Source of the DNA: Warburgia ugandensis
Taxonomy: Eukaryota; Streptophyta; Magnoliopsida; Canellales; Canellaceae
Reading direction: 5' to 3'
DNA: 64,000 nt
Assembly: GCA_035236585.1 (NCBI GenBank)
Contig: CP141128.1
Span: forward strand, 51,759,257 to 51,823,256
In this document: positions 24,894 through 56,807 of the stretch, piece by piece
Numbering within the stretch: the first letter of the stretch is position 1
How the letters are laid out: every line of letters starts with the position of its first letter
The notes under the pieces: model-generated
Told to the model about the DNA's origin: nothing
Database searches by the model: none
The model's input: only the letters and a program-made list of their open reading frames with translations
Program-made: the position numbers and the translations under genes

Positions 24894-24912
24894 TGAGTAT
24901 AGTATATACTCA
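24894..24912 (+). other. Conserved LTR hairpin, LTR-A type
   Basis: TGAGTATA and TATACTCA form a perfect 8-bp stem with loop GTA, 351 bp before the LTR end. It is preceded by GCTCCTAC, similar in place and lead-in to the LTR-B hairpin. Confidence 0.8.
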
Positions 24913-25265
24913 CCCAATCCTCAACATTTTTCAAACACAAAGTAAACACTTAAGAGCAAGGAACGCTTGTGACAGAAGATACCCAGACTAAGTGCAAGTA
25001 AGTAAACCCCTACCTTATCTTTCAATGTCACTTGATTGTAGTTACTCTCTAATAGTTGAGGCTGTGACTAACACTTTCTTGGGAATAATGTTGATTTAAC
25101 ACTTTGCCATGGCTAGATAATTTGAGAATGTGTTTTGACACTCGGGGTTTTTATGAAAGATTGTTTTCCAAAACAAAAATATTTTCATGCATTTCATACT
25201 TATAAAACAAGAGATCCCGCCTTTTTATCAAAATTGCATCATATAAAAACCTGGGTCATCACAAT

Positions 25266-25277
25266 TGGTATCAGAGC
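25266..25277 (+). other. Primer binding site of the Tekay-like element
   Basis: TGGTATCAGAGC, two bases after the 5' LTR end; complementary to initiator-Met tRNA. Confidence 0.95.
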
Positions 25278-25403
25278 GCGGTTTAACGTTACTCACAGCC
25301 CAGTTATGAGGAGAATAACTTATAATCAAGCTTCATCCATGAAAGAGTAAGGGGTAATAGGATAACACATACTAAGATTTGGTAAATTACCTTGTGATTA
25401 TAG

Positions 25404-26390
25404 ATGCCTAGGAAGAAAGGAAGCAATGCTCCAAAACCTGAAGCCCCACCAGTGGACTCCACTGGATCGGGCAACGGGATGGCTGAGTTATTCCAACAAT
25501 TCTTACAGAATATGGGACAATACATGAATAGTCAAAGCCAAACTCCTACCACCCGAGATCCTTCCCCTGATAAAGTAATAGATAGGACTGAGGTCCAGTT
25601 AGAAAGGTTTCAGAAATTAGCTCCCTCATTCACAGGAGAAGATGAAGCATCTATAGCTGAAAAATGGTTAATTGATATTGAAAAGATATTTAAAGCCATG
25701 AACATAGCTGAAGAAAGAAAAGTACCCATGGCCTCATTTGTGTTTAGGGGAGAGGCTACCTTTTGGTGGGAAACAGCAGAAAGGACTTATTTTGACCAGC
25801 GAGAAACAATAGGATGGGAAGAGTTTAAAAGGGTCTTTAATGACAAATATTATCCTAAACATGTAAGAAAACAGAAGGAAAAGGAATTTATGGACTTAGA
25901 ATAAGGGAATATGACTATCCAACAATATGAAAATAGATTCATCAGCCTCCAAAGATTTGCACCGCGTTCTTGTGCTGATGAGGAAGATGCAGCAGAAAGA
26001 TTTGTAGATGGGCTCAACCCAGGACTCAGGAGCAGAGTTCTAGGTTTCCAACCTTCCACCGTAGCCAAGGCAGTAGAGATGGCCTCCCTATACGAAAAAG
26101 ATTACCAAAGGAATCAGGCGATGAAGGAAACTAAGAACATCAACACCATGAGAAATAAAGGAAAGAGACCATTTCAGTCATCTGGACCCAGGCCACCTTT
26201 CAAGAAGCCGTTTGAAAACAAAGGAAGAAGACTAGACTGGAAAACATGCCCTAAGTGTAACAAGAGTCATTTAGGCAAAACATGTCCCATTTTCAACATC
26301 ACTTGCTATCTTTGTGGAGAACCAGGACATTTTGCTAAGGATTGTTCTAAAAAGAAAGTTGAAGAGCATAAAGGAGATCAAGTTCCAAAA
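25404..26390 (+). pseudogene. gag region of the Tekay-like element
   Basis: Encodes a capsid/nucleocapsid relic. The start at 25,404 opens MPRKKGSNAPKPEAPP. A Retrotrans_gag-type segment contains WLIDIEKIFKAM, FVFRGEATFWWE and the EFKRVFNDKYYP motif, followed by LQRFAPRSCADEEDAAERF. A basic stretch leads to a CCHC zinc knuckle, CYLCGEPGHFAKDC, at 26,304-26,345, which in this family binds the element's RNA. The length and order are normal for a chromovirus gag. It is a fossil and not intact. Confidence 0.93.
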
Positions 26391-26429
26391 AGCCAAGGAC
26401 GTGTCTTTGCCCTCACTTCCAGTCAAGCC

Positions 26430-26977
26430 CAGGCTTCAAACGCAGTAGTTGAAGGTATTCTTTCTATCTATGATATACCTGCTAAAGTTCTATTCGATAC
26501 AGGCACCACTCATTCTTTGGTATCCTGGGAGTTTGCATCATCCTTGGACATTATACCACAGGACCTGGACTTCACTCTAGAAGTCATGACTCCTGTAGGC
26601 CAGGCACTTCCCACCTATTCTTATCTCCAGGATGTCCCCATTTTGATTAAGGATCATTTGCTACATGCCAATCTCATTCACTTAGATATGAATGACTTCA
26701 ACATCATCCTAGGTATGGATTGGCTAGCCTTTCATCAAGCCTTTGTTGATTGCCACCAGAAACGTGTCACCTTTACCCTACCTAATGGAGATACTTTCAC
26801 CCTCCAAGGAAGAAAGGATTATTCTAGAGCGTGTGTTATTTATTCCATGAAAGCAGTTAAGCACATTGCACAGGGATGCCCCTTCTTCTTAGCCAAGATT
26901 GAATCTGTCGAGAGTTCCCAACCAAAGCTAGAGGATGTGGAGATAGTCTGAGAATTTCCTGACGTATTCCCTGAGGA
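26430..26977 (+). pseudogene. Aspartic protease region of the Tekay-like element
   Basis: Contains the active-site motif LFDTGTTHSLVS (Asp codon at 26,496-26,498) and the downstream hydrophobic ILGMDWL motif typical of Ty3/Gypsy proteases, fused behind the zinc knuckle. The coding sequence leads towards the [18 protein letters not shown] linker before the RT. The nested solo LTR sits in that linker. Confidence 0.93.
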
Positions 26978-27358
26978 CTTACTACGACGACCCAGGTTTT
27001 TTCATGCATTTTTAAATGAAAAATCTAAATTCTTAAGGCGGGATCCCTATTAAAAAAACAATGCAGTGCAGCGAAAAAATCTTTTATTTGAAATTCAATT
27101 TGAAAACCCCGAGTGTCATTTTCTTTCACAACAACCAAGGTAGTTTTTGAAAAGCCTTAGAAATCATAAGTGTTTTTCCCTAGATCTATCCAGTCATAGC
27201 ACACAGCCCAACTGTAATTAAATACAAATACATGTCCAAAGGGTTGAGAATTTACTTACATGTATAATTGTTTCCTTTTTGATTCACTTGCTCGTAGTAC
27301 CAACATAGATGTCCTCTACTCGTGGATGGAATTATCCTGAAAAATGTTAAGGATAGGA

Positions 27359-27377
27359 TGAGTATATACTATACTCA
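27359..27377 (-). other. Conserved LTR hairpin, LTR-A type, in the nested solo LTR
   Basis: TGAGTATATACTATACTCA is the exact inverse of the 24,894 hairpin. Confidence 0.8.
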
Positions 27378-27545
27378 GTAGGAGTCTATCAATACTAGTT
27401 TTATAATGCATGAGATGTTTTAAAATCATATGCTCTTTCAAAACATGTGCAAGTCTGAATACTCAAGTTCAATATCGATATTAAAATCCATTGTCAAATT
27501 GAAATACTAACGACTTAAAGGATCATATAATCCAAATCGAAAGTA

Positions 27546-27572
27546 TCATATATACATATATATATATATATC
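27546..27572. repeat. (TA)n microsatellite
   Basis: CATATATACATATATATATA-type run. The other LTR-A copies have only a short ATATATGATAC here, so it expanded in this copy. Confidence 0.85.
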
Positions 27573-29185
27573 ATAACATTATGATATGCATAAGATGCTT
27601 CATTGAATCCAACTCATGGATATCTATCATGGTATGGTCGACCAACCTCATATCATGCCATATGCAATGGAAATAAATCCATGAAACCATAGGGTCCCAC
27701 TATGCCCACGACCTCACCGCCGTGTGGTCCCCGGGTACCTAGGGACACAGGACCATATACCTCCACGGGGCATATGACACTTCAACCCAGTCCCGTGACA
27801 CTAGTGGTAGCCCCCTGGACCACATGCAGTCGAAGCAGGGACATGCCCTTTTTGGGCGTGGTACCCATCCACCTAATACTGGTAGAGGCTGGGTGGTCAA
27901 CCCACACCCCTCGGCATAGCACCCACGAGCTTACTAGCCCAAATCATGTACGATCAAATAAGCCAAAAACCTCTTTTCAAAAGCTGTCGTCTTTGGGTCC
28001 CTCACAACTGTCTGGCCCTCGGTACTCTAACGTCTTTTGGCAACCCTCAAGGACATGCAATCTTTGCAAGAACTTAATGCTCATAGATCATGCAATGTAT
28101 GCAATAGTTTGCAAAACATATCTATGCATAATGTATATACAAAACATGTCTATGCATAAAGCATTTGTCACATGCATGCTAAACAAGTTATAGACTTAAA
28201 TCATGTATTTGCAAAATAATCATAGTTCTTTTAAAAGAATCTAGTAGCTATAGAGCACCTACCTGGCTAGGTCGCGTTAACCCTTTTGTCCTCGTACGCT
28301 CCTGAACATGGTTTGGGGACTCAAGGTTAGTTTAGCCTATCTTTTATGGGTTTTAGAGTGGTTGGTCTTATTACTTAGACATTAGGGGTCCATCCCTATT
28401 CCTATGGGTGTCCTAAGGTCCTAATTGGGCCTTGGTATTCTCAGTTTTCCAAAGGTCTAGTGGCCATGCGCCACCATCCTATTCTAAGGGTCATGTCCAC
28501 CTTTGATTGGGCCTTGATTAGGGATTTTATAGTTTGGGTATGTCCGCGTCGTCGACACGGACACAATGCCTTTGGTGGCGTCTCAATCGGAGGTCTAAAT
28601 CTCAAGGTATAAGCGTTTTAGTGTCACACATACATAAGGGTCTCAAGAATGAAAAGATGGAATGCTAAGGCGCTGTGCGTCTGCGTCATGCGCCCCGGCT
28701 TCCTTAAGGAATGAAGAAATCCCATAGCACTAGCATGCTGTGCGTCTGTAGCATGCGCTTCAGCGGGCGCGTCGGCAGACGCGGCAAGTTTTCCCGCCCA
28801 ACTCTCTCTTTTGCGGGCGCATCCAAGGACGTGCCCGTTTGGTTTTTCAAATGGGAACGACGTGTTACGTTCCGACTAGAACGTTTCATCCTCTGGGGTA
28901 CTGGGGCATCCTCAGGACACCCTGGTTCGACCCTGTTGAACCAGTGCGGCCCAGGGAATGTTCCTGGGTCCTTGGTGAGTCTCCTGGGCTCCATTTTGCA
29001 TGGTTTTTCATGCAAAAAAAACTAGGGAAACTGATCTTAGAACTACGGTGGAGATGGGTTTTGAGGGATCTTGGGCATACCTGGCTCCTTACTGGGTTTT
29101 TCTCCTTGTTTTCCCCTCTAGGTCACTCCTCCACAATGGGTTTTCTCCAACCTTTTGGGCTGCCATTAGAGGCGCCCAAGAGCTC

Positions 29186-29193
29186 TATTTATA
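29186..29193 (-). promoter_or_regulatory. TATA box of the nested LTR-A
   Basis: TATTTATA is the inverse of TATAAATA, within the same AGCTCTAT..ATAGAGCT palindrome. Confidence 0.7.
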
Positions 29194-29592
29194 GAGCTAT
29201 GAGAGGGTTCTGGAGGGGGCTCTCACTACCTTTGAATGGCGGTGATTTCACCTCCAATCACCACCATTCTAGAACCCTCTAGGAGGTGGAAGATGAAGGG
29301 TGCCCGTATCAAAACGGGCCCCTGTGTTTTGCAGCTAAATCCGTTTTTGTAAAAATTATAGTTTTGCCCCTGAACTTCAAAGGGTCATAACTTGCTCATT
29401 TTAACTCCATTTTGGGTGATTTTGATCTTGTTGGATTCCTTTCTCTGAGACGCACCTAATGGTACTATTTTTAGGACCAAATTTCTGGGTTTAGTCAAGG
29501 TGAATAGTGAAATGACCAAAATGCTCTTATCTTCAAAACTGAACTTTTCATGGGATTTTTAATATTACAAAAATTGGGGTCATTACACTTAC

Positions 29593-30260
29593 CAGGTCTA
29601 CCTCCACCAAGGGAAATTGAGTTTATCATTGACCTTATACTCGGTACTTCCCCCATTTCCAAAGCTCCTTACCGAATGGCTCCTGCAGAACTAAAAGAAC
29701 TGAAGACCCAGTTACAAGAACTACTTGACAAAGGGTTCATACGACCTAGCGTATCTCCGTGGGGAGCTCCAGTCCTTTTTGTTAAGAAAAAGGATGGCTC
29801 CATGAGATTGTGCGTAGACTATCGGATGCTAAATAGGGTCACCATTAAAAATAAGTACCCCCTTCCTCGAATTGATGATCTTTTCGATCAACTTCAGTCA
29901 GCCAGAGTCTTCTCTAAGATTGATCTGCGATCCGGATACCATCAGCTTCGAGTTAGAGAAGAAGATATCTCCAAGACAGCCTTCAGGACTCGATACGGCC
30001 ATTATGAATTCAGAGTGATGTCCTTTGGTTTAACTAATGCTCCAGCCGCGTTTATGGACCTCATGAATAGGGTGTTCAAGGAGTACTTAGATAAATTCAT
30101 CATAGTGTTTGTGGATGATATCTTAATATATTCTGAAACTTCTGAAGACCATAAGGAACATCGAAGGATAACATTAAGCACCCTACGAGCACACAAGTTA
30201 TATGCAAAATTCAGTAAGTGTGAGTTTTGGCTGGAAAAGGTTAATTTCTTAGGACATATT
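29593..30260 (+). pseudogene. Reverse transcriptase region of the Tekay-like element
   Basis: Shows the chromovirus RT series: [75 protein letters not shown] and the catalytic box FVDDILIYS (30,108 onward). Wording such as [15 protein letters not shown] before the RT is typical of Tekay/Del. Copying element RNA into DNA is the known role of the family. The region belongs to a broken element. Confidence 0.95.
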
Positions 30261-30499
30261 ATTTCTCAAGATGGCATAGCAGTTGACCCCACTAAGGTTG
30301 AATCAACACAGAACTGGGAAAGACCTAAGACAGTCATAGAAATAAGAAGCTTCTTAGGGCTTGCCGGATATTACAGGAGATTCATCGAGGGTTTTTCACA
30401 AATTGCTTTACCTCTAACTAAGCTGACCAAGAAAGACACAAGATTTGAATGGACTGATAAATGTGAGGAAAGCTTCCAAGAACTAAAAGAAGGTTAACT

Positions 30500-30860
30500 A
30501 CAACACCTATCCTTACCTTACGTTCAGGAAATGGCAGATTTGAGATATACAGCGATGCCTCGCAACAAGGGCTAGGCTGCGTACTTATGCAACATGGGAA
30601 GGTAATTGCTTATGCTTCTCAACAACTCAAGAAGCATGAAGTCAATTACCCGACCCATGACTTGGAATTAGCGGCCATAGTCTTTGCCTTGCGAATCTGG
30701 AGACATTATTTATATGGGGAAAAGTTTGAAGTTTTTACTGATCACAAGAGTCTTAAATATATCTTTTCCCAACAAGACTTAAACATGCGACAAAGAAGAT
30801 GGATGGAATACTTAAAAAGACTATGACTTCTCCATTCATTATCACTCTGAAAAAGCTAAT
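30500..30860 (+). pseudogene. RNase H region of the Tekay-like element
   Basis: Carries the [13 protein letters not shown] first-Asp motif, [20 protein letters not shown] (Glu and Asp region) and [11 protein letters not shown], then RRWMEYLK, in the standard spacing after the RT. In the family it removes the RNA strand during reverse transcription. Part of the same fossil. Confidence 0.93.
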
Positions 30861-31129
30861 GTGGTAGCTGATGCATTAAGTAGAAAAACCCAAGGGATGT
30901 GTGCAAGTTTATTAACTAAGAGATGGAAGTTATTACAAGAAGTAATCACATGGAAACCAGACATAAGTAAGCACAAGATCATTATGGCAGGTCTAACAAT
31001 AAAATCGGCTGTTAATGAAAAGGTTAAGCAAGAACAAAAAGGAGATATGGATATACAAACTTTCATAGGAAAACCAGGGTTTACAAAAAGGGAAGATGGT
31101 AGCGTTTACATGCAAGGAAGATTAGTGGT

Positions 31130-31920
31130 ACCGGCTAATGAAGAGTTAAGACAAGAAATCTTAAAAGAGGCTCATCGGTCTAAGTATACTATACACCCAG
31201 GAGGAACTAAGATGTATCAAGACTTAAAGAAACAATATTGGTGGGATGGTATGAAAAGAGACATGGGGGAATTTGTGGCAAAGTGTCTAACATGTCAACA
31301 AATAAAGGCTAAACATCAAAGACTTGTGGGATTGTTACAACCCCTTGAGTTACCCGAATGGAAATGGGACCATATTACAATGAACTTCATCGTAAGGCTA
31401 CCCAGGACCTCTAAGGGTCATGACATGATCTGGGTAATTGTTGATAGATTAACTAAGACAGCCCATTTCCTTCCTATACGTCATACCCAATCCACTGACA
31501 GCCTATCTCAGCTATACATCAAAGAGATAGTAAGTCTACATGGTATACCCCTTAGTATCACTTCAGATAGGGATAGCCGCTTCACTTCGCAACTCTGGAA
31601 GTCTGTCCAAAAATCCTTAGGATCTTCCTTGAACTATAGCACAGCCTTCCATCCACAGACCGATGGACAGTCAGAGCGCACAATCTAGATAGTTGAAGAT
31701 ATGTTCTGAACTTGTGCCCTCGATTGGAAGCAGAGCTGGGATGGAAACCTACCGCTAGTCTAGTTTGCATACAACAATAGCTTTCAGTCGAGCATTGGCT
31801 TGGCTCCATACGAGGCACTCTATGGGAGACCTTGTCGATCACCCACCAGTTGGAGTGACGTTGGAGAGTCCAGGGTGCTCCAGTCCGAGCTGGTAGAGCA
31901 ATGAGCTGAGAAGGTCAAAC
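31130..31920 (+). pseudogene. Integrase region of the Tekay-like element
   Basis: An HHCC zinc module (H.....H then KCLTCQQIKA) at about 31,170-31,310 is followed by the catalytic core: WKWDHITMNFIVRLP (first acidic position region), IWVIVDRLTKTAHFLP, ITSDRDSRFTSQ (second Asp) and AFHPQTDGQSERT (third acidic residue). The remainder is recognisable up to the LAPYEALYGRPCRSP-type motif. Broken, but all parts are in order. Confidence 0.93.
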
Positions 31921-31984
31921 TCATAAGAAGACGCCTCCTCACAGCTCAAAGCCGCCAAAAGAGCTATGCTGATCGAAGGAGGAG

Positions 31985-32384
31985 ACCATTGGAATTTGAC
32001 ATAGGAGAGCACGTTTTCCTGAAGATATCTCCCACTAAAGGAGTTATGCGGTTCGGTATCAAAGGCAAGCTTAGTCCGCGTTACATAGGACCTTTCGAAA
32101 TCCTGGAGAAAGTGGGAAAAGTGGCCTATAGGATCGCACTACCCCCTCAGCTATCTGAAGTGCATAACGTATTCCATGTATCTATGCTAAGGAGGTACGT
32201 GCCTGACCCCACTCATGTCATCAACCAAGTACCCATAAAGTTGACGGAGGATCTCAAGCTAGAGACAAGACCAGTTGAGATCCGGGATCGTAAGAGTAAG
32301 AAGCTTTGGAACAAGGACATACCCTTAGTCAAAGTTTCGTGGAGAAATGCGCACATGGAAGAAGAGACTTGGGAACCGGAGTAA
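31985..32384 (+). pseudogene. Integrase C-terminal GPF module and chromodomain-like tail
   Basis: VFLKISPTKGVMRFG, KLSPRYIGPFEILEKVG, VAYRIALPPQLS and VHNVFHVSMLRRYVPDP form the GPY/F module after the core. The tail has KSKKLWNKDIPLVKVSW and EEETWEPE, the usual shape of a chromovirus chromodomain, thought to steer insertion into heterochromatin. This supports placing the element among the chromoviruses. Confidence 0.9.
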
Positions 32385-32455
32385 AAAATACGAGAAAAGT
32401 ACTCCAAGATCTTTTGACTATATATATAGTAGAATTTTGGGGGCGAAATTCCCCT

Positions 32456-32468
32456 AAGGGGGTAAGAA
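32456..32468 (+). other. Polypurine tract
   Basis: AAGGGGGTAAGAA directly before the 3' LTR; preceded by AATTTTGGGGGCGAAATTCC, a stretch typical of Tekay/Del elements. Confidence 0.85.
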
Positions 32469-32894
32469 TGTAATGACTCCAATTTTGTAATATTAAAATC
32501 CCAAGTTAGCAATGAAAAGTTCAGTTTTTGAAGTAAGGCATTTTGGTCATTTCACTATTCATTTTGACTAAACCCGGAAAAATGGTCCTTAAAATAGTAC
32601 CATTAGGTGCATCTTGGAAAAAGGAATCCAACAAGACCAAAATCACCCAAAACGGAGTTAAAATGAGCAAGTTATGGCCCTTTGAAGTTCAGGGGCAAAA
32701 ATGTAATTTTTATTAAAAAACGGATTTAGCCTGCAAAACACAGGGGCCCGTTTTGATACGGGCATCTTTCATCTTCAACCTCCTAGATGGTTCTAGAACT
32801 GCGATGATTGGAGGAGAAATCACCGCCATTCTAGAGGTTTCTCCACTTTCATTCAAGGGCGGTGAGAGCCCCCTCCATAACCCTCTTATAGCTC

Positions 32895-32902
32895 TATAAA
32901 TA
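32895..32902 (+). promoter_or_regulatory. TATA box of the 3' LTR-A
   Basis: TATAAATA within the AGCTCTATAAATAGAGCT near-palindrome. Confidence 0.7.
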
Positions 32903-34706
32903 GAGCTCTTGGGCGCCTCTAATGGCAGCCCAAAAGCTTGAAGAAAACCCGTTTTGGAGAAGCAACCTAGAGGGGAAACGAGGAGAAAAACCCAGCAACG
33001 AGCCAGGTATGCCCAAGATCCCTCAAAACCCATCTTCACAGTAGTCCAAGGCTCAGTTTCCCTAAGTTTTTGCATGAAAAATCATGCAAAATAGAGCCCT
33101 GGAGAGTCACCAAGGACCCAGGGACGTTCCCTGGCCCGCACTGGTTTGACAGGGTTGAACCAGGGTGTCCTGAGGATGCCCTGGTCCCCCAAATGAGCAG
33201 AACGTCCTACCTGGACGAAACGCATCGACCGCGTTCGATAGAACCAAACAGTTGCATCCGTGGACGCGCCCGCAAAAGGGAAAGGCAGGCAGGAAACCCA
33301 GTGCATTTGTAGACGCGCTCGCTGAGGCGCATGCCGCAGATGCACAACGCGCTAGCGATCCGGGATTTTCCATTTCTTAAGGCAGCTGGGGCGCATGCCA
33401 CTGACGCGCAGCGCGCTAGCATTCTGCCTTTTCACTCTTAAGGTCCTTATGCACGTGTGACACTAAAAAGCTTATAACATGAGATCTAGAGGTCTGATTA
33501 AGGCAGCGCAAAAGACGTTGTGTCCATGTCGATGACACAGACACACCTAAACTATAAAATCCCTAATCAAGGCCCAATCAAAGGTGGGCATGACCCTTAG
33601 AATAGGATGGTGGCGCGTGGTCGCTAGACCTTTGAAAAATTAATGATACAAAGGCCCAATTAGGACCTTAGGACACCCATAGGCATAAGGATGGACCCTT
33701 AATGCCTAAGTAATAAGACCAACCACTCTAAACACATAAAAGATAGGCCAAACTAACCTTGATTCCCCAAACCATGTTCAGGAGCGTACGAGGACAAAGG
33801 GGTTAGCGTGACCTAGCTAGGTAGGTGCTCTATCGCTACTAGATTCTTTTAAAAGAGCTATGATTGTTTTGCGAATACATGTTTTAAGTATATGACTTGT
33901 TTAGCATGACTTAATTCAGCATGCATATGATAAATGCTTTATGCATAGACATGTTTTGTAAATAATTGCATATACATTATGCATAGATATGTTTTGCAAA
34001 CTATTGCATACATTGCATGATTTGTGAGCATTAAGTTCTTGCAAAATTTGCATGTCCTTGAGGGTTACCAAAAGATGTTGGAGTGCCGAGGGCTAGGCAG
34101 TTGTGAGGGACTCAAAGAGGACAGGTTTTGAAAAAGAGATGTTTTTGCTTGTTTGATCGTATATGATTTGGGCTAGTAAGCTCGTGGGCGCTATGCCGAG
34201 TGGTTGGGGTGGCCTCCCAGCCTCTACCACTACTAGGTGGATTGGGTACCATGCCCAAAAAGGGCATGCCCCTATGTCTACTGCATGTGGTACAGGGGGC
34301 TACCAGTGTCATGGCACTGGGTCGATGTGTCATATGCCCCGTGGAGGCTATGACGCTGTGTCCTTAGGTACCCGGGGACCACACGGCGGTGAGGTCGTGG
34401 GCATATTGGACCCTATGGTTTTGTGGACTTGTTTGCATTGCATATGGCATGATATGAGGTTGGTCGACCATACCATACTAGATATCCATGAGTTGGATTC
34501 AATGAACCATCTTATGCATATCATTATGTTATGATATATATGATACTTTCGACTTGGTTTGTGAGATTCTTTAAGTCGTTAGTGTTTGAATTTGACAATG
34601 GTTTTTGATATATTGAACTTGAGTGTTCAGACATGCACATGTTTTGAAAGAGCACATGATTTTAAACATCACATGCATTATAAAACTAGTAGTGATAGGC
34701 TCCTAC

Positions 34707-34725
34707 TGAGTATAGTATATACTCA
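34707..34725 (+). other. Conserved LTR hairpin, LTR-A type
   Basis: TGAGTATAGTATATACTCA, unchanged from the 5' LTR copy. Confidence 0.8.
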
Positions 34726-35076
34726 CCCAATCCTCAACATTTTTCAGACACAAAGTAAACACTTAAGAGCAAGGAACGCTTGTGACAGAAGATACCCAGA
34801 CTAAGTGCAAGTAAGTAAACCCCTACCTTATCTTTCAATGTCACTTGATTGTAGTTACTCTCTAATAGTTGAGGCTGTGACTAACACTTTCTTGGGAATA
34901 ATGTTGATTTAACACTTTGCCATGGCTAGATAATTTGAGAATGTGTTTTGACACTCGGGGTTTTTATGAAAGATTGTTTTCCAAAACAAAAAGATTTTCA
35001 TGCATTTCATACTTATAAAACAAGAGATCTCGCCTTTTTATCAAAATTGCATCATATAAAAACCTGGGTCGTCACA

Positions 35077-35340
35077 GGTTTTTAGTAAGTTTCTCTTAAT
35101 TCTAGTTTCTAATTCCATGCATGCTTCTTACTTTAATTTCCTAGTATGATGACAACTCTTTCTCTTTGGCTAAAGTTAATTGATCTAAATACAATCCAAA
35201 CCATTGCAAATATGTAGGATTCCTCATGGGATCAACCTCACTTGCATACATATACTACAATTTATTCATGTGGTTGCGAGTAATTTTAAAGCTACAGCAC
35301 TTGGTTATAATCTAGTGTATTTTTGGTTGCAAAGATGCGT
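35077..35340 (+). repeat. Plus-strand Athila/Tat-like LTR or leader copy 2, right part
   Basis: Continues the sequence broken at 22,687 after the GGTTT duplication. Contains CCTCATGGGATCAACCTCAC and a TTTTTGGTTGC string near 35,320 that may be a decayed Asp-type primer site. Noncoding. Confidence 0.5.
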
Positions 35341-36485: not shown

Positions 36486-36499
36486 GGGATTGGCTAAAT

Positions 36500-38435: not shown

Positions 38436-38439
38436 GGAT

Positions 38440-41785: not shown

Positions 41786-43122
41786 ATGCTTGTCCAAATT
41801 ACATAATCCAAATTTCAAAGCTCACCATACAATAAAACTCTCAATACAATACAATGCTCTCAAATAAAAATACATGTCTTCAACGGGCATACCCTGATGA
41901 TTATTCTCCCAAATCTTCTTCAATCTTGAGCTCCTAACTCTCCTTCTCTGTATCTGAGATATTGTAAACATTCAAACATTTACAATATCTCAGCAAGCTA
42001 TGCTTGGTAGGGGATTCAAGAAGCATAACAATTTGACAGTATAATCCTAATACTTCATAATCCCATTATTCATACTCATGGATCAATCTCTTTACATGGT
42101 CATATATGTACATCCATACACATACAAACTATATACTTTGTATATAAATATATATGGTCAAAATAGTGAAAAATAGTTAATATCTAAAAGCATAATCATA
42201 CCCAGTTTATACTGAGTTGATAGATCATCCAGACTCTGCCAGACATACTCCCTCATTTGGGCAGTATCCGTAATCCACGATTACCCGGCATCTCATCATG
42301 CCATAACATAATCCATTTCACTATGCCATGCATCATAATGCAAAATACTCAAAGGACTACTATGCATGCAGTCAGAATCCATACTAACACGCCCAGATAA
42401 CATGCTTAATAATCCACCTATACCATCCTTGGTGGAAATCACAATATCCATGTCCATATGGGGGGGCCCATGGCTGTCATAATGGCAGCCTTCCCATAAT
42501 TGCCCCACCTGACTTTTAGCCTCACTTATGCTTGGTATCCATATCATAACAAGTTTCGGAGAGCGAGTGGCTAATCCCTACTAACTCTCTTAGCATAGCA
42601 TCCTCAGGCATGTGCCTGTTTAAAACAAAACCACAAGCCTCCATGCTTGTATGTAAAGTAATTCTATTACATACCAGACAATTTGTGTGTTTACTTAGGG
42701 CTGGAATATCTTCTAGTTCCATATTCACTTAGAGTTTTTTCCTCATTTCTAACTTGACCATTTCTTATGTGTTTGGTTGGATCATAAGGGTTTTCAAGGG
42801 ATTTTATACAAGTATTTACATTACACTTGTCAACATTTCTAGACATAAGATCATGTATTCAACATGTATATCTCATGTAGATGCATTCTTAAAATCCACC
42901 TACCTTGAAGTAGTGATCCATCTCTTCAGATCTTCCATGATCCTGACTGACATATGTAATCTATAAATCCATACATACTATCAATATTTATACAATCTGA
43001 ATAATCCTATACTTTTTATCCTATCTATATTCTTTGTTTAATCTTGTCCTTTGATATAAAGGATCTAGATCTTTTGTCCAATCATGATCTATCTTCCTCA
43101 AATAGTGTTTATCCTATTGATC
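41785..43122 (-). mobile_element. Inverted, truncated LTR-B copy
   Basis: Follows LTR-B in reverse, from the part near its 3' end (41,785, truncated) through the hairpin (41,954-41,993) and the GC-richer block (42,420-42,640) to the mid-LTR part near 43,010. It is more diverged than the copies to its right. It joins a forward copy at about 43,123 through the shared letters CAC. Confidence 0.75.
41954..41993 (-). other. Conserved LTR hairpin, 15-bp stem
   Basis: CTGAGATATTGTAAA and TTTACAATATCTCAG pair perfectly, the longest uninterrupted stem among the copies. Confidence 0.85.
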
Positions 43123-44374: not shown

Positions 44375-44394
44375 GTATGTATGTATGTATGTAT
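44375..44394. repeat. (GTAT)n microsatellite
   Basis: GGTATGTATGTATGTATGTA run; the other copies have (TA)n here. Confidence 0.85.
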
Positions 44395-44510
44395 ATAAAT
44401 ATACATAACTTACAAAGTAAAGAGTATGTTTAAGGATAATGAGATTATGAAGTATTGGAATTACCTTGTCAATTATTATGTTTCTTGAATCTCCTACCAA
44501 GCATTGCTTG

Positions 44511-44541
44511 CTGAGATATTGTACTTGTTGCAATATCTCAG
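44511..44541 (+). other. Conserved LTR hairpin
   Basis: CTGAGATATTG and CAATATCTCAG form an 11-bp stem; the loop is TACTTGTTG. Confidence 0.85.
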
Positions 44542-44948
44542 ATACAGGGAAGGAGAGTTAGGAGCTAAAGACTATAGAAGAGTTGAAGAGAATAATCTTC
44601 AAGGTATACCCTTGAAGACATGTATTTTTCTTTGTTGAGAGTTTTATTGTATGGTGAGCTTGAGTTTTGGATTATGTAATTTGGACAAGTATTATACTAG
44701 ATTTGGCTGTACTATGAACCCATGGATGGATCTTGGAGTTTAATAAAAGTATATTCCTTTAATGGAATTTTATTTTGTACACAAATTGTACTTATGTTAT
44801 GTATGAAGTGGTGACTTGGGTTTTCAAAACAAGTTCTAAAGAAAAGAATTTCCACTGCTTTGTTTTGCGAAAATTTTTTACACTCTTAAGGGCCCTGCCT
44901 TTCAAAATACTTTACAAATCATGTTTCAAAAACCTGGGTCGTCACAGT

Positions 44949-44960
44949 TGGTATCAGAGC
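44949..44960 (+). other. Primer binding site, initiator-Met type
   Basis: TGGTATCAGAGC two bases after the LTR end. Only about 65 bp of internal sequence follow before an inverted LTR begins at about 45,028. Confidence 0.9.
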
Positions 44961-45027
44961 AATTCATCCAATCACAATACAGTACAAATATGTCCAAAGG
45001 AGAGATTATAATCCAAGTCTAGATGTT

Positions 45028-47123: not shown

Positions 47124-47156
47124 ATGAGATCAAGTGTGATCAGATCCTTGGGATGG
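47104..47156. repeat. Centre of the large palindrome
   Basis: CCATCCCAAGGATCTGATCA, a 13-bp spacer (47,124-47,136) and TGATCAGATCCTTGGGATGG: a perfect 20-bp inverted repeat at the very centre. Confidence 0.95.
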
Positions 47157-49658
47157 ATAAAATGAATGTTGATACAATGAAATGCAAGAAATTATGGATG
47201 GATTATGAAAAAAATAGATCAATATGATCTTTGGACCTTAACAAAGAAAATCCCCTAAATATAACTAATACCCTTAATCAAAGGAAAAGATCTAAGATCT
47301 AATAGTTGAATCATAAGTAAAGGTTTCTAACATTGTTAATGCAATTAGTATCATTTTAAATATCATTATGTTATAAAGCATGCTAGTATAACATTTAGAC
47401 TTTAGCATGATATGTGATTTCATTGTTATCATAAGGTGCTAGATTTAATTATCTTAGGGGCACTTTAGTATGATTTCATGCCATTCTAACTTAGGACCAT
47501 GCAATAATTTTATATAAGTTTATACTATAGTATGAGATTATACCTTAAGTCCATGTTAGTTTAAATTGGGTTATTAAGGTATATTAGTTGGAAATCATGT
47601 TAGAGTAATTTTAAGTGCCTTGTCTCATTATCATTAAGTGTTAAATTATGTAGTTTTATGCTTTGAATTTATAATTCATTTATGGTTAAATGTTATTAGT
47701 AGATCTACATGTTATGAGAGCACAAAACATAAAAAATGTATTCTAATGAGAAAGTAGAGTTTCATGAGACAAATAAGTATGGAGTACTTTGGATATAATT
47801 CGTAAGGGCTATAGTTAGTAGGACAATATAAGGATTATCAAATCGTTGGCCCAAGCTAGGAGAAGAATGATAAACCCCATGAATGACATTATAAATATTC
47901 ATGGACTTAATTAAAATCCATTAGAAAGAGTATTTAGGGTAAACATGCTTATAGGAACCTTATGAAAGGTTGAGCTATGGTCATTCTAGTGAATGATGAA
48001 CATAGTGGTTAAGGGGGCTATCTAATAGAGCCTTGCTCTTCCCCTACTTTCCGTTGATGTTTGTGAGGTCTAAACGCCACCTTACATGAGGATTGAAGTA
48101 ACTACTTTGTGTTCACCCATTCAGCTAGTAAGCCTCCAATTGGAAATAAGAGGAGCAAATTCGCATTTAGACTTGAATAAGTTACCTTCAACCAACACAT
48201 TAACTGGTTGAATAATAATAATAAGAGCATAAAAGGTTAGTAAATTACCTAACCCTAATAAAAATAGTAAGTAAGATAAGGATGATCAAACAAGATCCAT
48301 TAGATCTTGGATGATCAAGAACAATAAGAATAAGAATATTATATTGTACTTAGTATGCATGTTTATTAGTATGCTTGTTATAGTTCATTAGATTAGATAA
48401 TCCAAACCCTTAATCAAAGATGATTCAAGGAAGAAGACCAAGATCATCCTCCTTAGGGATGATCCAATAACTGAACTTAGATCAAAGAAGAACTAGATGA
48501 TAGAAGATATAGGACCCTGATCTTTATCAACATGTGTAGATTGTAAATCAATGGATCTATGAAAGATCAAGATCAAGGAGATGGGCACACAAAGGCTTAG
48601 AGATAGAAAAATACTTAGATATGAATGATCTAAAGATCATTCTAAACAGTAGATCACATTAGGTCCAGTGATCAATAGGATTGTTCAAATTTATATATAA
48701 GAATACGTATGGATGTACAGATCATATACATCAGTCAGGATCATGGAAGATTTGGGAAAAGAGATCACTCCTTAAAGGTAGGAGGATTTGATGAATGCAC
48801 TTACATGGGATATACATGCTTTAACTCATGATCTTATTATGACAAGAGTAATGTTAATACTTGTATTAGATCTCTTGAAAACCTTATGATCCAACCAAAC
48901 ACATATAAGATGGTTAAGGACAACTATAAGTGAATAGGGAAGTAGAAAATATTTCAGCCCTAGGTAAATAGACATATGGTCTGATATATATGAAATCTAT
49001 TTTACATACAAGCTTGGAGGCTTGTGAGTTTGTTTTAATAGGCATAAGCCTAGGTGAATGCTATTGCTAGAGGAGTTATGAGGGTTTGACCACCCGCTCC
49101 TTGAAATTTGATGATATGATGATACCTTGCCCAAAGAGAGGCTAAAAGTCGGGTGGTGGCAATTATGGGAAGGCCACCACTGTGAAAGTCTTGCCCCCCC
49201 ATATGGGCAGTGACATAATATTTTTCACCATGGTATCAGCAGTGAACAGGGCAGTTATCCGAGCACGCTAGTATGGATCAGACTGCAGAATAGCAACCTT
49301 TCTGATTATTTTGCACTATGATGCATATGAGAATAGGCATAGTGAAATGCCTTATGTTGTAGCATAATGAAATGCTAAGTAATTGTATATTACCAATATT
49401 TCCCAAGAAGGGAAATTCCCAGTATAAGATTAGTTGTAATACTAAATTCTCAAAATGAAGAGTATTGATCAGCTTAGTTGGGAATGATATTTGACTACTT
49501 TCACAAATTTAACTTGTTTACCCATGAAGGGTATGTATATATATAGATAGACATAACTTACAAACTAAAGAGTATGCTTAAGGATAATGAGATTATCAAG
49601 TATTGGAATTACCTTGTCAATTATTATGCTTCTTAAATCCCCTACCAAGCATTGCTTG

Positions 49659-49689
49659 CTGAGATATTGTAAATGTTGCAATATCTCAG
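49659..49689 (+). other. Conserved LTR hairpin
   Basis: CTGAGATATTG and CAATATCTCAG, 11-bp stem with loop TAAATGTTG. Confidence 0.85.
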
Positions 49690-50082
49690 ATACAGGGAAG
49701 GAGAGTTAGGAGCTGAAGACGATAGAAAACTTGAAGAGAATAATCTTCAAGGTATACCCTTGAAGACATGTATTTTTCTTCGTTGAGAGTTTTATTGTAT
49801 GGTGAGCTTGAGTTTTGGATTATGTAATTTGGGCAAGTACTATAATAGATTTGGCTGTACTGTGAACCACTAGATGGATCCTAGAGTTTAGTAAAAGTAT
49901 ATTCCTTCAATGGAATTTTATTTTGTACACAAATTGTACTTATGTTATGTATGAAGTGGTGACTTGGGTTTTCAAAACAAGTTCTAAAGAAAAGAATTTC
50001 CGTTGCTTTGTTTTGCGAAAAAAAATTTTACACTCTTAAGGGCCCTGCCTTTCAAAATACATTACAAAACATGTTACAAAAA

Positions 50083-50112
50083 ATCTGGGCCATCCATTCC
50101 TTGGGCCCAGAT
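50083..50112 (+). other. Inverted repeat at the LTR-spacer junction
   Basis: ATCTGGGCC and GGCCCAGAT pair around about 11 bases, exactly where the LTR end should be. Repeated at 53,439-53,468 in unit 2 and absent at the end of unit 3. Confidence 0.7.
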
Positions 50113-50456
50113 CAAATCCAAGCCCTAAGAAGGACTATGAACTTCCAGATCACAATCTGGAGTCATCTGAACTCCAAATTGAGATCGGAAAAAGCTATGG
50201 AAAGCTTGAAACCTCTATTTTCTGATGAAATGATAAAATGGACATAATATTCAGTAAAAATTTCTGTATTAAAGAAACAAGTTTCCAATTACCTAGATCT
50301 TCAAGGTCTGAGATGATCAGATCTTGAAAATATGTTTTAATAATGATATACTATTTAAATAAAGTGATATATACGGTTTATTTGGACATAAATGAGATAT
50401 ATTAAGGGATCTACCCATTATGGTAGAAAAACCCCAAAAATACAAAGGGACGCACT

Positions 50457-53400
50457 TGATCAATGAGATCAAGTGTGATCAAATCCTTGGGATGGATAAA
50501 ATGAATGTTGATATAATAAAATCCAAGAAATCATGAATGGATTATGACAAAAATGAATCAATGTGATCTTTGGACCTTAATAAAGAAAATCCCCTAAATA
50601 TAACTAATACCCTTAATCAAAGGAAAAGATCTAAGATCTAATGGTTGGATCATAAGTAAAGGTTTCTAAAAATGTTAATGTAATTAGTTCATTTTACATA
50701 ATAGCATTTTAAATATGATTATGTTATAAAGCATGCTAGTATAACATTTAGACTTTAGCATGATATGTGATTTCATTGTTATCATAAGGTGCTAAATTTA
50801 ATTATCTTAGGGGCACTTTAGTATGATTTCATGTCATTCTAACTTAGGACTATGCTAGAATTTTATATAAGTTTATACTATAGTATGAGAATATACCTTA
50901 AGTCCATGTTAGTTTAAATTGAGTTATTAAGGTATATTAGTTGGAAATCATGTTAGAGTAATTTTAAGTGCCTTGTCTCATTATCATTAAGTGTTAAATT
51001 ATGTAGTTTTATGCTTTGAATTTATAATTCATTTATGGTTAAATGTTATTAGTAGATCTACATGTTATGAGAGCACAAAACATAAAAAATGTATTCTAAT
51101 GAGAAAGTAGAGTTTCATGAGACAAATAAGTATGGAGTACTTTGGATATAATTCGTAAGGGCTATAGTTAGTAGGACAATATAAGGATTATCAAATCGTT
51201 GGCCCAAGCTAGGAGAAGAATGATAAACCCCATGAATGACATTATAAATATTCATGGACTTAATTAAAATCCATTAAAAAGAGTATTTAGGGTAAACATG
51301 CTTATAGGAACCTTATGAAAGGTTGAGCTATGGTCATTCTAGTGAATGATGAACATAGTGGTTAAGGGGGCTATCTAATAGAGCCTTGCTCTTCCCCTAC
51401 TTTCCGTTGATGTTTGTGAGGTCTAAACGCCGCCTTACATGAGGATTGAAGTAACTACTTTGTGTTCACCCATTCAGCTAGTAAGCCTTAGCCAATTGGA
51501 AATAAGAGGAGCAAATTCGCATTTAGACTTGAATAAGTTGCCTTCAACCAACACATTAACTGGTTGAATAATAATAATAAGAGCATAAAAGGTTAGTAAA
51601 TTACCTAACCCTAATAAAAATAGTAAGTAAGATAAGGATGATCAAACAAGATCCATTAGATCTTGGATGATCAAGAACAATAAGAATAAGAATGTTATAT
51701 TGTACTTAGTATGCATGTTTATTAGTATGCTTGTTATAGTTCATTAGATTAGATAATCCAAACCCTTAATCAAAGATGATTCAAGGAAGAAGACCAAGAT
51801 CATCCTCCTTAGGGATGATCCAATAACTGAACTTAGATCAAAGAAGAACTAGATGATAGAAGATATAGGACCGTGATCTTTATCAACATGTGTAGATTGT
51901 AAATCAATGGATCTATGAAAGATCAAGATCAAGGAGATGGGCACACAAAGGCTTAGAGATAGAAAAATACTTAGATATGAATGATCTAAAGATCATTCTA
52001 AACAGTAGATCACATTAGGTCCAGTGATCAATAGGATTGTTCAAATTTATATATAAGAATACGTATGGATGTACAGATCATATACATCAGTCAGGATCAT
52101 GGAAGATTTGGGAAAAGAGATCACTCCTTAAAGGTAGGAGGATTTGATGAATGCACTTACATGGGATATACATGCTTTAACTCATGATCTTATTATGACA
52201 AGAGTAATGTTAATACTTGTATTAGATCTCTTGAAAACCTTATGATCCAACCAAACACATATAAGATGGTTAAGGACAACTATAAGTGAATAGGGAAGTA
52301 GAAAATATTTCAGCCCTAGGTAAATAGACATATGGTCTGATATATATGAAATCTATTTTACATACAAGCTTGGAGGCTTGTGAGTTTGTTTTAATAGGCA
52401 TAAGCCTAGGTGAATGCTATTGCTAGAGGAGTTATGAGGGTTTGACCACCCGCTCCTTGAAATTTGATGATATGATGATACCTTGCCCAAAGAGAGGCTA
52501 AAAGTCGGGTGGTGGCAATTATGGGAAGGCCACCACTGTGAAAGTCTTGCCCCCCCATATGGGCAGTGACATAATATTTTTCACCATGGTATCAGCAGTG
52601 AACAGGGCAGTTATCCGAGCACGCTAGTATGGATCAGACTGCAGAATAGCAACCTTTCTGATTATTTTGCACTATGATGCATATGAGAATAGGCATAGTG
52701 AAATGCCTTATGTTGTAGCATAATGAAATGCTAAGTAATTGTATATTACCAATATTTCCCAAGAAGGGAAATTCCCAGTATAAGATTAGTTGTAATACTA
52801 AATTCTCAAAATGAAGAGTATTGATCAGCTTAGTTGGGAATGATATTTGACTACTTTCACAAATTTAACTTGTTTACCCATGAAGGGTATGTATATATAT
52901 AGATAGACATAACTTACAAACTAAAGAGTATGCTTAAGGATAATGAGATTATCAAGTATTGGAATTACCTTGTCAATTATTATGCTTCTTAAATCCCCTA
53001 CCAAGCATTGCTTGCTGAGATATTGTAAATGTTGCAATATCTCAGATACAGGGAAGGAGAGTTAGGAGGCGAAGACGATAGAAAACTTGAAGAGAATAAT
53101 CTTCAAGGTATACCCTTGAAGACATGTATTTTTCTTCGTTGAGAGTTTTATTGTATGGTGAGCTTGAGTTTTGGATTATGTAATTTGGGCAAGTACTATA
53201 ATAGATTTGGCTGTACTGTGAACCACTAGATGGATCCTAGAGTTTAGTAAAAGTATATTCCTTCAATGGAATTTTATTTTGTACACAAATTGTACTTATG
53301 TTATGTATGAAGTGGTGACTTGGGTTTTCAAAACAAGTTCTAAAGAAAAGAATTTCCGTTGCTTTGTTTTGCGAAAAAAAATTTTACACTCTTAAGGGCC

Positions 53401-53812
53401 CTGCCTTTCAAAATACATTACAAAACATGTTACAAAAAATCTGGGCCATCCATTCCTTGGGCCCAGATCAAATCCAAGCCCTAAGAAGGACTATGAACTT
53501 CCAGATCACAATCTGGAGTCATCTGAACTCCAAATTGAGATCGGAAAAAGCTATGGAAAGCTTGAAACCTCTATTTTCTGATGAAATGATAAAATGGACA
53601 TAATATTCAGTAAAAATTTCTGTATTAAAGAAACAAGTTTCCAATTACCTAGATCTTCAAGGTCTGAGATGATCAGATCTTGAAAATATGTTTTAATAAT
53701 GATATACTATTTAAATAAAGTGATATATACGGTTTATTTGGACATAAATGAGATATATTAAGGGATCTACCCATTATGGTAGAAAAACCCCAAAAATACA
53801 AAGGGACGCACT
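50457..53812 (+). mobile_element. Forward LTR-B plus spacer, tandem unit 2
   Basis: Same layout as unit 1 with an exact 3,356-bp offset across the second half (the 79-codon frame at 50,008-50,247 recurs unchanged at 53,364-53,603). Starts in the palindromic CACTTGATCAATGAGATCAA. Hairpin at 53,015-53,045. The 79-codon frame has no recognisable family and is probably chance. Confidence 0.9.
53015..53045 (+). other. Conserved LTR hairpin
   Basis: Identical to 49,659-49,689. Confidence 0.85.
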
Positions 53813-56807
53813 TGATCAATGAGATCAAGTGTGATCAAATCCTTGGGATGGATAAAATGAATGTTGATATAATAAAATCCAAGAAATCATGAATGGATTA
53901 TGACAAAAATGAATCAATGTGATCTTTGGACCTTAATAAAGAAAATCCCTAAATATAACTAATACCCTTAATCAAAGGAAAAGATCTAAGATCTAATGGT
54001 TGGATCATAAGTAAAGGTTTCTAAAAATGTTAATGTAATTAGTTCATTTTACATAATAGCATTTTAAATATGATTATGTTATAAAGCATGCTAGTATAAC
54101 ATTTAGACTTTAGCATGATATGTGATTTCATTGTTATCATAAGGTGCTAAATTTAATTATCTTAGGGGCACTTTAGTATGATTTCATGTCATTCTAACTT
54201 AGGACTATGCTAGAATTTTATATAAGTTTATACTATAGTATGAGAATATACCTTAAGTCCATGTTAGTTTAAATTGAGTTATTAAGGTATATTAGTTGGA
54301 AATCATGTTAGAGTAATTTTAAGTGCCTTGTCTCATTATCATTAAGTGTTAAATTATGTAGTTTTATGCTTTGAATTTATAATTCATTTATGGTTAAATG
54401 TTATTAGTAGATCTACATGTTATGAGAGCACAAAACATAAAAAATGTATTCTAATGAGAAAGTAGAGTTTCATGAGACAAATAAGTATGGAGTACTTTGG
54501 ATATAATTCGTAAGGGCTATAGTTAGTAGGACAATATAAGGATTATCAAATCGTTGGCCCAAGCTAGGAGAAGAATGATAAACCCCATGAATGACATTAT
54601 AAATATTCATGGACTTAATTAAAATCCATTAAAAAGAGTATTTAGGGTAAACATGCTTATAGGAACCTTATGAAAGGTTGAGCTATGGTCATTCTAGTGA
54701 ATGATGAACATAGTGGTTAAGGGGGCTATCTAATAGAGCCTTGCTCTTCCCCTACTTTCCGTTGATGTTTGTGAGGTCTAAACGCCGCCTTACATGAGGA
54801 TTGAAGTAACTACTTTGTGTTCACCCATTCAGCTAGTAAGCCTTAGCCAATTGGAAATAAGAGGAGCAGTCCAGATTTAGACTTGAATAAGTTGCCTTCA
54901 ACCAACACATTAACTGGTTGAATAATAATAATAAGAGCATAAAAGGTTAGTAAATTACCTAACCCTAATAAAAATAGTAAGTAAGATAAGGATGATCAAA
55001 CAAGATCCATTAGATCTTGGATGATCAAGAACAATAAGAATAAGAATGTTATATTGTACTTAGTATGCATGTTTATTAGTATGCTTGTTATAGTTCATTA
55101 GATTAGATAATCCAAACCCTTAATCAAAGATGATTCAAGGAAGAAGACCAAGATCATCCTCCTTAGGGATGATCCAATAACTGAACTTAGATCAAAGAAG
55201 AACTAGATGATAGAAGATATAGGACCCTGATCTTTATCAACATGTGTAGATTGTAAATCAATGGATCTATGAAAGATCAAGATCAAGGAGATGGGCACAC
55301 AAAGGCTTAGAGATAGAAAAATACTTAGATATGAATGATCTAAAGATCATTCTAAACATTAGATCACATTAGGTCGAGTGATCAATAGGATTGTTCAAAT
55401 TTATATATTGAGAATACGTATGGATGTACAGATCATATACATCAGTCAGGATCATGGAAGATTTGGGAAAAGAGATCACTCCTTAAAGGTAGGAGGATTT
55501 GATGAATGCACTTACATGGGATATACATGCTTTAACTCATGATCTTATGATGACAAGAGTAATGTTAATACTTGTATTAGATCTCTTGAAAACCTTATGA
55601 TCCAACCAAACACATATAAGATGGTTAAGGACAACTATAAGTGAATAGGGAAGTAGAAAATATTTCAGCCCTAGGTAAATAGACATATGGTCTGATATAT
55701 ATGAAATCTATTTTACATACAAGCTTGGAGGCTTGTGAGTTTGTTTTAATAGGCATAAGCCTAGGTGAATGCTATTGCTAGAGGAGTTATGAGGGTTTGA
55801 CCACCCGCTCCTTGAAATTTGATGATATGATGATACCTTGCCCAAAGAGAGGCTAAAAGTCGGGTGGTGGCAATTATGGGAAGGCCACCACTGTGAAAGT
55901 CTTGCCCCCCCATATGGGCAGTGACATAATATTTTTCACCATGGTATCAGCAGTGAACAGGGCAGTTATCCGAGCACGCTAGTATGGATCAGACTGCAGA
56001 ATAGCAACCTTTCTGATTATTTTGCACTATGATGCATATGAGAATAGGCATAGTGAAATGCCTTATGTTGTAGCATAATGAAATGCTAAGTAATTGTATA
56101 TTACCAATATTTCCCAAGAAGGAAAATTCCCAATATAAGATTAGTTGTAATACTAAATTCTCAAAATGAAGAGAATTGATCAGCTTAGTTGGGTATGATA
56201 TTTGACTACTTTCACAAATTTAACTTGTTTACCCATGAACGGTATGTATATATATAGATATACATAACTTACAAACTAAAGAGTATGTTTAAGGATAATG
56301 AGATTATGAAGTATTGGAATTACCTTGTCAATTATTATGCTTCTTAAATCCCCTACCAAGCATTGCTTGCTGAGATATTGTAAATGTTGCAATATCTCAG
56401 ATACAGGGAAGGAGAGTTAGGAGCTAACGACGATAGAAGACTTGAAGAGAATAATCTTCAAGGTATACCCTTGAAGACATGTATTTTTCTTTGTTGAGAG
56501 TTTTATTGTATGGTGAGCTTGAGTTTTGGATTATGTAATTTGGACAAGTACTGTAATAGATTTGGCTGTACCGTGAACCACTGGATGGATCTTGGAGTTT
56601 AATAAAAGTATATTCCTTCAATGGAATTTTATTTTGTACACAAATTGTACTTATGTTATGTATGAAGTGGTGACTTGGGTTTTCAAAACAAGTTCTAAAG
56701 AAAAGAATTTCCGCTGCTTTGTTTTGTGAAATTTTCTTTTACACTCTTAAGGGCCCTGCCTTTCAAAATACATTACAAAACGTGTTACAAAAACCTGGGT
56801 CATCACA
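53813..56807 (+). mobile_element. Forward LTR-B, tandem unit 3 with a normal LTR end
   Basis: Nearly identical to unit 2 for its first kilobase, then slowly more different. It ends with the proper terminus AAACCTGGGTCATCACA at 56,807 and has no spacer. Hairpin at 56,370-56,400. The following 5 bp are GGTGG; no matching duplication was found at the left end of the cluster. Confidence 0.9.
56370..56400 (+). other. Conserved LTR hairpin
   Basis: CTGAGATATTG and CAATATCTCAG, 11-bp stem, 407 bp before the LTR end. Confidence 0.85.

Follow-up and report, generated by a model that had tools for sequence, protein, structure and literature searches.

A foldable two-stem hairpin conserved in long terminal repeats of Warburgia ugandensis

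The stretch of Warburgia ugandensis DNA analysed here (contig CP141128.1, positions 51,759,257 to 51,823,256; hereafter the window) is 64 kb long, 64% A+T and rich in long LTRs (long terminal repeats) of retrotransposons. Our subject is a hairpin that recurs in the LTRs of two families, LTR-B and family C, together with a stem of a different build in a further family, LTR-A. An earlier note on the same DNA had placed this hairpin near the 3' end of the LTRs and had read its letters as compensatory changes. We find that it is a real foldable module, conserved in LTR-B and family C, and that it is ordinary in kind, being a hairpin of the R (repeat) region or of the promoter.

The LTR-A element has LTRs of 2.6 kb and, two bases beyond the 5' LTR, the primer-binding site (PBS) TGGTATCAGAGC. 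Pfam matches to Retrotrans_gag, RVP_2, RVT_1 and Integrase_H2C2 lie above the cut-off, in Ty3/gypsy order between both LTRs; the rve match falls below it (23.5 vs 32.6), and the chromodomain match is weak and truncated by a stop (PF00385, E 0.01, 16.2 bits with a cut-off of 25.1, profile positions 7-36 of 53). Our reading of this element is a Ty3/gypsy LTR retrotransposon of chromovirus type, and we take the lineage of these elements to be Tekay/Del-like, a name resting on the long LTRs and the PBS. The LTR ends of LTR-B and family C resemble AAAACCTGGGTCATCACA, from which they differ by at most several changes; after them the PBS recurs as an exact copy, at 44949 in LTR-B and at 6022 on the minus strand in family C.

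The hairpin module and its copies

The module has two stems (Table 1). The first, HP1, is CAAGC/GCTTG in most copies, and the second, HP2, of the form CTGAG.../...CTCAG, follows directly with no spacer. The HP2 arms are CTGAGATATT...AATATCTCAG in LTR-B, where both 10-nt arms are exact in 6 of 8 copies, and YTGAGGCATT...AATGCCTYAG in family C. A single 8-bp stem, TGAGTATA/TATACTCA, is found in LTR-A; it is intact and entirely Watson-Crick in all 3 copies. A covariance model built from the seven lineages of LTR-B and family C, which themselves supply 7 of the 10 copies found, detected ten copies in the window at E < 1e-10 (8 LTR-B, 2 family C), and each scored higher on the sense strand of its LTR than on the other. 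Below these came the same hairpins on the opposite strand (E 0.0015 or worse), followed by matches at chance level. At the curated gathering score, Rfam gave no match in the window. A looser scan for TGAG...CTYA hairpins gave 36 matches, 23 of them at the named copies and 13 elsewhere (e.g., 5,913, 8,875 and 11,917); we treated these 13 as chance, given a mean of 9.6 matches (largest 18) in random windows.

Table 1. Positions of the hairpin copies, the LTR-A element and the border between LTR-A lineages
Feature	Position	Strand	Remarks
HP1+HP2, family C copy 1 (C1)	76..125 (HP2 94-125)	+	TATATAAAA 44 nt upstream of HP2; LTR end 230
HP1+HP2, family C copy 2 (C2)	6638..6687 (HP2 6,638-6,669)	-	exact PBS TGGTATCAGAGC at 6022 (minus) after LTR end
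HP1+HP2, LTR-B lineage B4 (decayed)	4120..4176 (HP2 4,138; 3' arm AATATCTTAA)	+	LTR end 4550
HP1+HP2, LTR-B lineage B3	15666..15723 (HP2 15,684)	+	LTR end 16103
HP1+HP2, LTR-B lineage B2	41954..42011	-	18 consecutive pairs including 2 G.U in sense RNA; best LTR-B copy
HP1+HP2, LTR-B lineage B1	44493..44541 (HP2 44,511)	+	LTR end 44946, exact PBS 44949
HP1+HP2, LTR-B B1 tandem unit 1	49641..49689 (HP2 49,659)	+	
HP1+HP2, LTR-B B1 tandem unit 2	52997..53045 (HP2 53,015)	+	
HP1+HP2, LTR-B B1 tandem unit 3	56352..56400 (HP2 56,370)	+	LTR end 56807
HP1+HP2, LTR-B lineage B5 (decayed)	59831..59880 (HP2 59831-59862; 3' arm AATATCTTAG)	-	
LTR-A stem TGAGTATA/TATACTCA, 5' LTR of element 22688-35076	24893..24912	+	TTATAAAA 28 nt upstream
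LTR-A stem, 3' LTR of element 22688-35076	34706..34725	+	
LTR-A stem, nested LTR copy 26983-29587	27359..27378	-	
LTR-A element	22688-35076	+	LTR 22688-25263, PBS 25266, gag, protease, reverse transcriptase, integrase, weak truncated chromodomain, LTR 32469-35076
Breakpoint between A1 and A2 LTRs	24930..24940	.	identity 92% on the upstream side (331 aligned bases) and 56% from there to the LTR end (318)

These results bear out much of what the earlier note had seen in the letters. The LTR-B stem is present at all five positions for which it gave coordinates (15,684; 41,954; 44,511; 49,659; 56,370), and the LTR-A stem at 24,894, 27,359 (minus) and 34,707. The module does occur in ten places, as the claim of about ten LTR-B copies would have it, but two of these belong to family C, and the eight LTR-B copies include three that had gone unnamed (53,015 and the decayed 4,138 and 59,831-59,862). 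The variant stems at 94-125 and 6,639-6,668 do differ from LTR-B at two adjacent pairs on both arms, but neither is perfect: C1 has one G.U, through its 3' arm AATGCCTTAG, and C2 one U.G, through its 5' arm TTGAGGCATT. The independence of the copies had been overcounted. As 49,659, 53,015 and 56,370 are tandem repeats and two of the LTR-A stems are the LTRs of one element, we count about nine lineages. The LTR-A stem was said to stand at the equivalent place; a stem is there, but MAFFT set its 5' arm on HP1 and its register against HP2 is uncertain. Because of this misalignment, the alignment that includes LTR-A was not used for pair counts, which come from an alignment of the seven B and C lineages that leaves out LTR-A and the three B1 repeats.

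The window has 9 perfect inverted repeats whose arms are at least 11 bp long and whose loops span 3-24 nt, against 0.8 expected from 30 Markov-simulated windows. Six of the 9 are copies of this hairpin; therefore, its mode of evolution is a more useful test than the excess. HP2 is paired in 68 of 69 cells across the seven B and C lineages, and RNAalifold returns the same ten-pair stem from their alignment. Of 500 shuffles of the 3'-arm letters, a control that ignores relatedness, only 4 paired as well as the real stem and only 4 scored as high in covariation. The fold of HP1 and HP2 together has z-scores of -2.8 to -7.3 in all seven lineages, and that of the LTR-A stem -2.4. HP2 pairs 2-8 form with a probability of 0.76 to 1.0 in the predicted folded leaders of B1, A1, B3 and C2. 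Sense RNA is stabler than antisense in all 8 of the B and C hairpins, with a margin of only 0.6 kcal/mol in C2.

Conservation along the LTR points the same way in LTR-B. Over the last 558 bp of four lineages, mean identity is 0.52, and of all 30-nt windows the one on HP1/HP2 ranks first, with 0.83. Pairwise slides of B1/B3, B1/B4 and B3/B4 likewise reach their maximum there (0.88-0.94). The conserved block extends about 25 nt upstream of HP1, as TTCTTAAA.TCCCCTAC. This peak and the sense-strand bias of the B and C hairpins are stronger evidence than the paired changes between the two families.

Those paired changes lie at HP2 pairs 6 and 7: where the five B lineages have A-U and U-A, both C copies have G-C and C-G. 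The 20 stem columns hold four fixed differences between B and C, and these form two whole pairs, with a probability of 45/4845 (0.009) if the four changes are independent and of about 0.05 if adjacent changes are one event. The alignment as a whole has 49 gap-free columns. Eight of them distinguish the two families, and of the 28 pairs that these eight can form, 9 are complementary in every row. The outer pair of HP1 has also changed on both sides (C-G in C1, U-A in C2), which helps a little. One-sided changes mostly retain a G.U in the sense strand, by 7 to 2 in a hand count (p 0.09) and by 10 to 2 when repeated states are counted apart (p 0.02); HP2 pair 3 has a one-sided G.U in 3 of 7 lineages, and pair 11 in C1. 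Six of the ten HP2 pairs are invariant, while the flanks of the four B lineages are only about 50% identical. Two further candidates for paired change were dropped: pair 12 (U-A, U.G, C-G), as B1 shares the G with C, and the comparison of LTR-A with B and C, as its register is uncertain.

Position in the LTR and the border in LTR-A

HP2 had been placed 375-440 bp before the LTR end. Four LTR-B copies agree, at 412-437 bp, but a fifth stands at 635 (3 are unmeasurable), the family C copies at 136 (C1) and about 640 (C2, from an LTR end at about 6025 implied by the PBS at 6022), and the LTR-A stems at 370, 370 and 395. TATA-like boxes lie 28-44 nt upstream of HP2 or the LTR-A stem in 6 of 13 copies (28 nt in the three LTR-A copies, TTATAAAA; 44 in C1, TATATAAAA; 34 in B3, TATATT; 30 in B5, GATAAAA). 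AATAAA occurs downstream at 231 nt in two B1 copies, 209 and 305 in B3, 95 in B5, 290 in A2 and 521 in C2; in the other copies it was not found downstream of the hairpin. Boxes upstream and AATAAA at no fixed distance (95 to 521 nt) make the module look promoter-proximal, and the role in 3'-end formation that the earlier note had suggested is not supported; nor is its placement near the 3' end borne out. The module probably sits near the border of the U3 (unique 3') and R regions, at the first bases of R.

The LTR-A lineages A1 and A2 differ abruptly close to the stem. Identity per 50-nt window is 0.84-0.98 within the 575 bp upstream of the hairpin and 0.3-0.5 from 35-45 nt past its start; shorter dips farther up U3 (0.44 near 23038, 0.64 near 24088) do not last. 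The LTR-A copy at 26983-29587 has a U3 close to that of its host element and an R-U5 (U5, unique 5') that matches it poorly. This copy is nested in the LTR-A element on the minus strand, between protease and reverse transcriptase. A lasting step of this kind is to be expected if two elements swapped U3 against R-U5 in the course of reverse transcription. If the hairpin is in R, the jump preceded arrival at the RNA 5' end, as would fit a pause at the stem; had the jump taken place at the RNA end itself, the start site would be at about 24,933 and the hairpin in U3. The slides of B pairs show no such step; hence, the border is a single case. It gives some support to strand transfer, one of the uses suggested in the earlier note. 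LTR elements of a plant family are already known to recombine with one another (PMC5668417; what is said of this and other cited papers refers to excerpts of them).

What the module may be

The fold has been kept despite changed surroundings and some changed stem letters; this points to a possible use of the folded shape itself. The reading that we favour, with a probability of roughly 0.45, is that long chromovirus-type LTRs carry, close to their U3/R border, a conserved module that folds as RNA near the end of the genomic transcript and perhaps acts in first-strand transfer in the manner of TAR, the R hairpin of human immunodeficiency virus type 1 (HIV-1). Transcription would start at or just before the module, in which case the genomic RNA would begin with it and carry a second copy in the 3' R. 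What is retained would be the fold rather than the letters. A terminal hairpin of this kind could organise the 5' end of the RNA and, as the leading use, assist the transfer of minus-strand DNA from the R at the 5' end to the one at the 3' end; dimerisation or packaging would be linked alternative uses. Long-LTR chromoviruses make up a large share of many plant genomes, and their RNA signals for strand transfer, dimerisation and packaging are, to our knowledge, little known. One conserved, foldable module close to the U3/R border is a concrete candidate for such a signal, open to tests on public genomes and long-read cDNA, and might explain why LTR halves recombine at that place. It is improbable, though conceivable, that the module goes further and serves as a shared docking structure at the border, so that minus-strand DNA of one chromovirus family finishes on the RNA of another and U3, with the promoter, and R-U5, with the leader, become exchangeable cassettes that meet at the conserved hairpin.

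There are known hairpins and palindromes with which the module can be compared. The HIV-1 TAR hairpin is present in R at both ends of the genomic RNA, and opening one side of its stem disturbs dimerisation and packaging (PMC3432602). The module would share this placement if, as its position leads us to infer, it lies in R; it differs in belonging to a Ty3/gypsy element with no known Tat-like protein and in having an unconserved loop. In long retroviral R regions, residual conservation has been linked to stem-loops (PMC3601003), although the chromovirus model of that study was trained mainly on LTRs of fish (Danio) rather than on the long LTRs of plant chromoviruses. A 6-nt palindrome, PAL6 (nt 391-396), in the apical part of a short hairpin near the 5' end mediates the dimerisation of Ty3 RNA in vitro (PMC11381356). 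Here, too, a palindrome would lie near the 5' end of a genomic RNA of the chromovirus clade, but it is the arms that form it, and the loops vary. In the LTRs of Sireviruses (Ty1/copia), numerous short palindromic repeats, almost all of them built around a CGG-CCG core, precede the TATA box (PMC2829016). Both are palindromes of plant LTRs near the promoter; the module, of a Ty3/gypsy family, has one match per B or C LTR, long stems and no CGG-CCG core, and lies downstream of the TATA-like boxes where these are found, so that we do not count it among repeats of the Sirevirus type. No hairpin of this build in plant chromovirus LTRs appeared among the matches listed in a search of literature titles and abstract openings, which is weak evidence of absence, with subscription literature mostly outside the search. 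Exact patterns for the LTR end with PBS and for the 5' side of HP1/HP2 had no match in viral and genome contig collections, and a piece of the reverse transcriptase had no relative among viral contigs; as the collections hold bacteria, archaea and viruses, these negatives say little about plants. The same four exact patterns match the window 2, 5, 1 and 6 times, so each finds close relatives only.

Several observations weigh against the favoured reading. The start site on which it depends is itself deduced. In 7 of 13 copies (four B1, B2, B4 and C2), none of the TATA-like motifs scanned was matched. The slide of B1/B2 has no unique peak, with 0.96 at the hairpin and 0.98 at +100, and in LTR-A there is no peak at all: the hairpin window (0.94 between A1 and A2) is equalled or bettered by 21% of windows. 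Neither is the sense strand favoured in LTR-A (-6.2 sense vs -6.9 antisense). In favour of the earlier claim, a structure kept by the element is supported by the pairing, the LTR-B peak and the tolerance of sense-strand G.U in B and C. The loops are not conserved. HP1 is weak by itself (-0.3 to -4.9 kcal/mol), and the predicted leaders of B1, B3 and C2 show it rearranged; since HP2 holds in the predicted leaders, it carries most of the case. Among the 500 shuffles, 161 matched the observed count of pairs changed on both sides and all matched the count of pair types. Finally, the double change between B and C is confined to a single branch and so amounts to one or two events, not to covariation shown above phylogeny. 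The description of these changes as compensatory is true letter by letter, but they may stem from one template-switch event, which comes close to the conversion of a whole block that the earlier note had itself set against its claim.

A live alternative, though a less likely one, is that the palindrome works as DNA, as a binding or bending site that belongs to the core promoter and either precedes the start closely or spans it, with the RNA fold as a by-product. In LTR-A, TATATA lies inside the stem (24903) and TCA at 24931-24933, about 30 nt on; with these, the start would fall after the stem, and the hairpin would belong to U3. The border between A1 and A2 falls there, as expected if the U3/R border follows the hairpin. 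Also in favour of this reading are the lack of strand bias in the all-Watson-Crick LTR-A stem and the conserved block reaching upstream of HP1. AATATCT in the LTR-B arms, which we take to be the core of the plant evening element, was also counted for a promoter dyad; the motif is destroyed between B and C and absent from the LTR-A stem, yet pairing is kept, and a reading as an evening element was dropped. The palindromic regulatory repeats of Sirevirus LTRs offer a precedent (PMC2829016). However, arm spacing differs by family, and long arms with a G.U bias in 8 of 8 B and C hairpins are unexpected for a protein dyad. Paired changes could also arise without selection on RNA, if template switching at a quasi-palindrome during DNA or cDNA synthesis copied one arm onto the other. 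Two adjacent pairs have changed together with no intermediate in the window, a pattern that has been attributed to template switching (PMC8794818), and the grouping of the four fixed changes into whole pairs agrees with it. We keep such mutational upkeep as a rival but consider it improbable, as one-sided G.U states persist (pairs 3 and 11), HP1 changes separately, and six HP2 pairs never vary although the B flanks have diverged.

Simple inheritance of an old, unconstrained palindrome, copied along with the LTRs, is very unlikely in view of the LTR-B peak against its flanks and of paired changes at two sites, even though the copies within a family are all homologous, independent lineages are few, the differences between B and C share one branch and LTR-A lacks a conservation peak. 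Stems of 8-18 bp are short for dicing, and we give hardly any credence to a hairpin facing the host, which would feed small-RNA silencing and be retained only through its overlap with an essential promoter. Predicted hairpins in the LTR elements of maize do show a 2.9-fold increase in small-RNA density, but according to the same study these structures have no obvious peak at any position along maize Ty3 elements (PMC10760457). An inserted miniature inverted-repeat transposable element (MITE) was considered and dropped, with no MITE scan made.

Further repeats in the window

Other hairpins occur in the same LTRs. One of 9 bp, TCTTCAAGG...CCTTGAAGA, lies 85 nt past the HP2 start at 44596-44618, 49744-49766, 53100-53122 and 56455-56477, in the four B1 copies only according to a scan for perfect arms. 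The U3 of LTR-A also carries a hairpin, TTTTGCATG...CATGCAAAA, at 23289-23312, 33068-33091 and 28994-29017.

The B1 repeats belong to three LTR-B-like units in direct tandem at 47118-56812, with a period of about 3355 bp and an identity of 97-98.5%. The first two units end before the LTR end (at about 50094 and 53450) and are followed by about 360 bp of other sequence. At the junction of minus and plus LTR-B copies there is a perfect 38-bp inverted repeat with a 13-nt spacer (47086-47174). A second exact PBS at 16163, preceded by CTGTTACAG (16151-16174), lies about 60 bp past the LTR end of B3 and perhaps marks another LTR terminus. A self-inverted repeat of about 445 bp, with 84% identity, occupies 12449-12892, and related pieces occur at 16220-16475.

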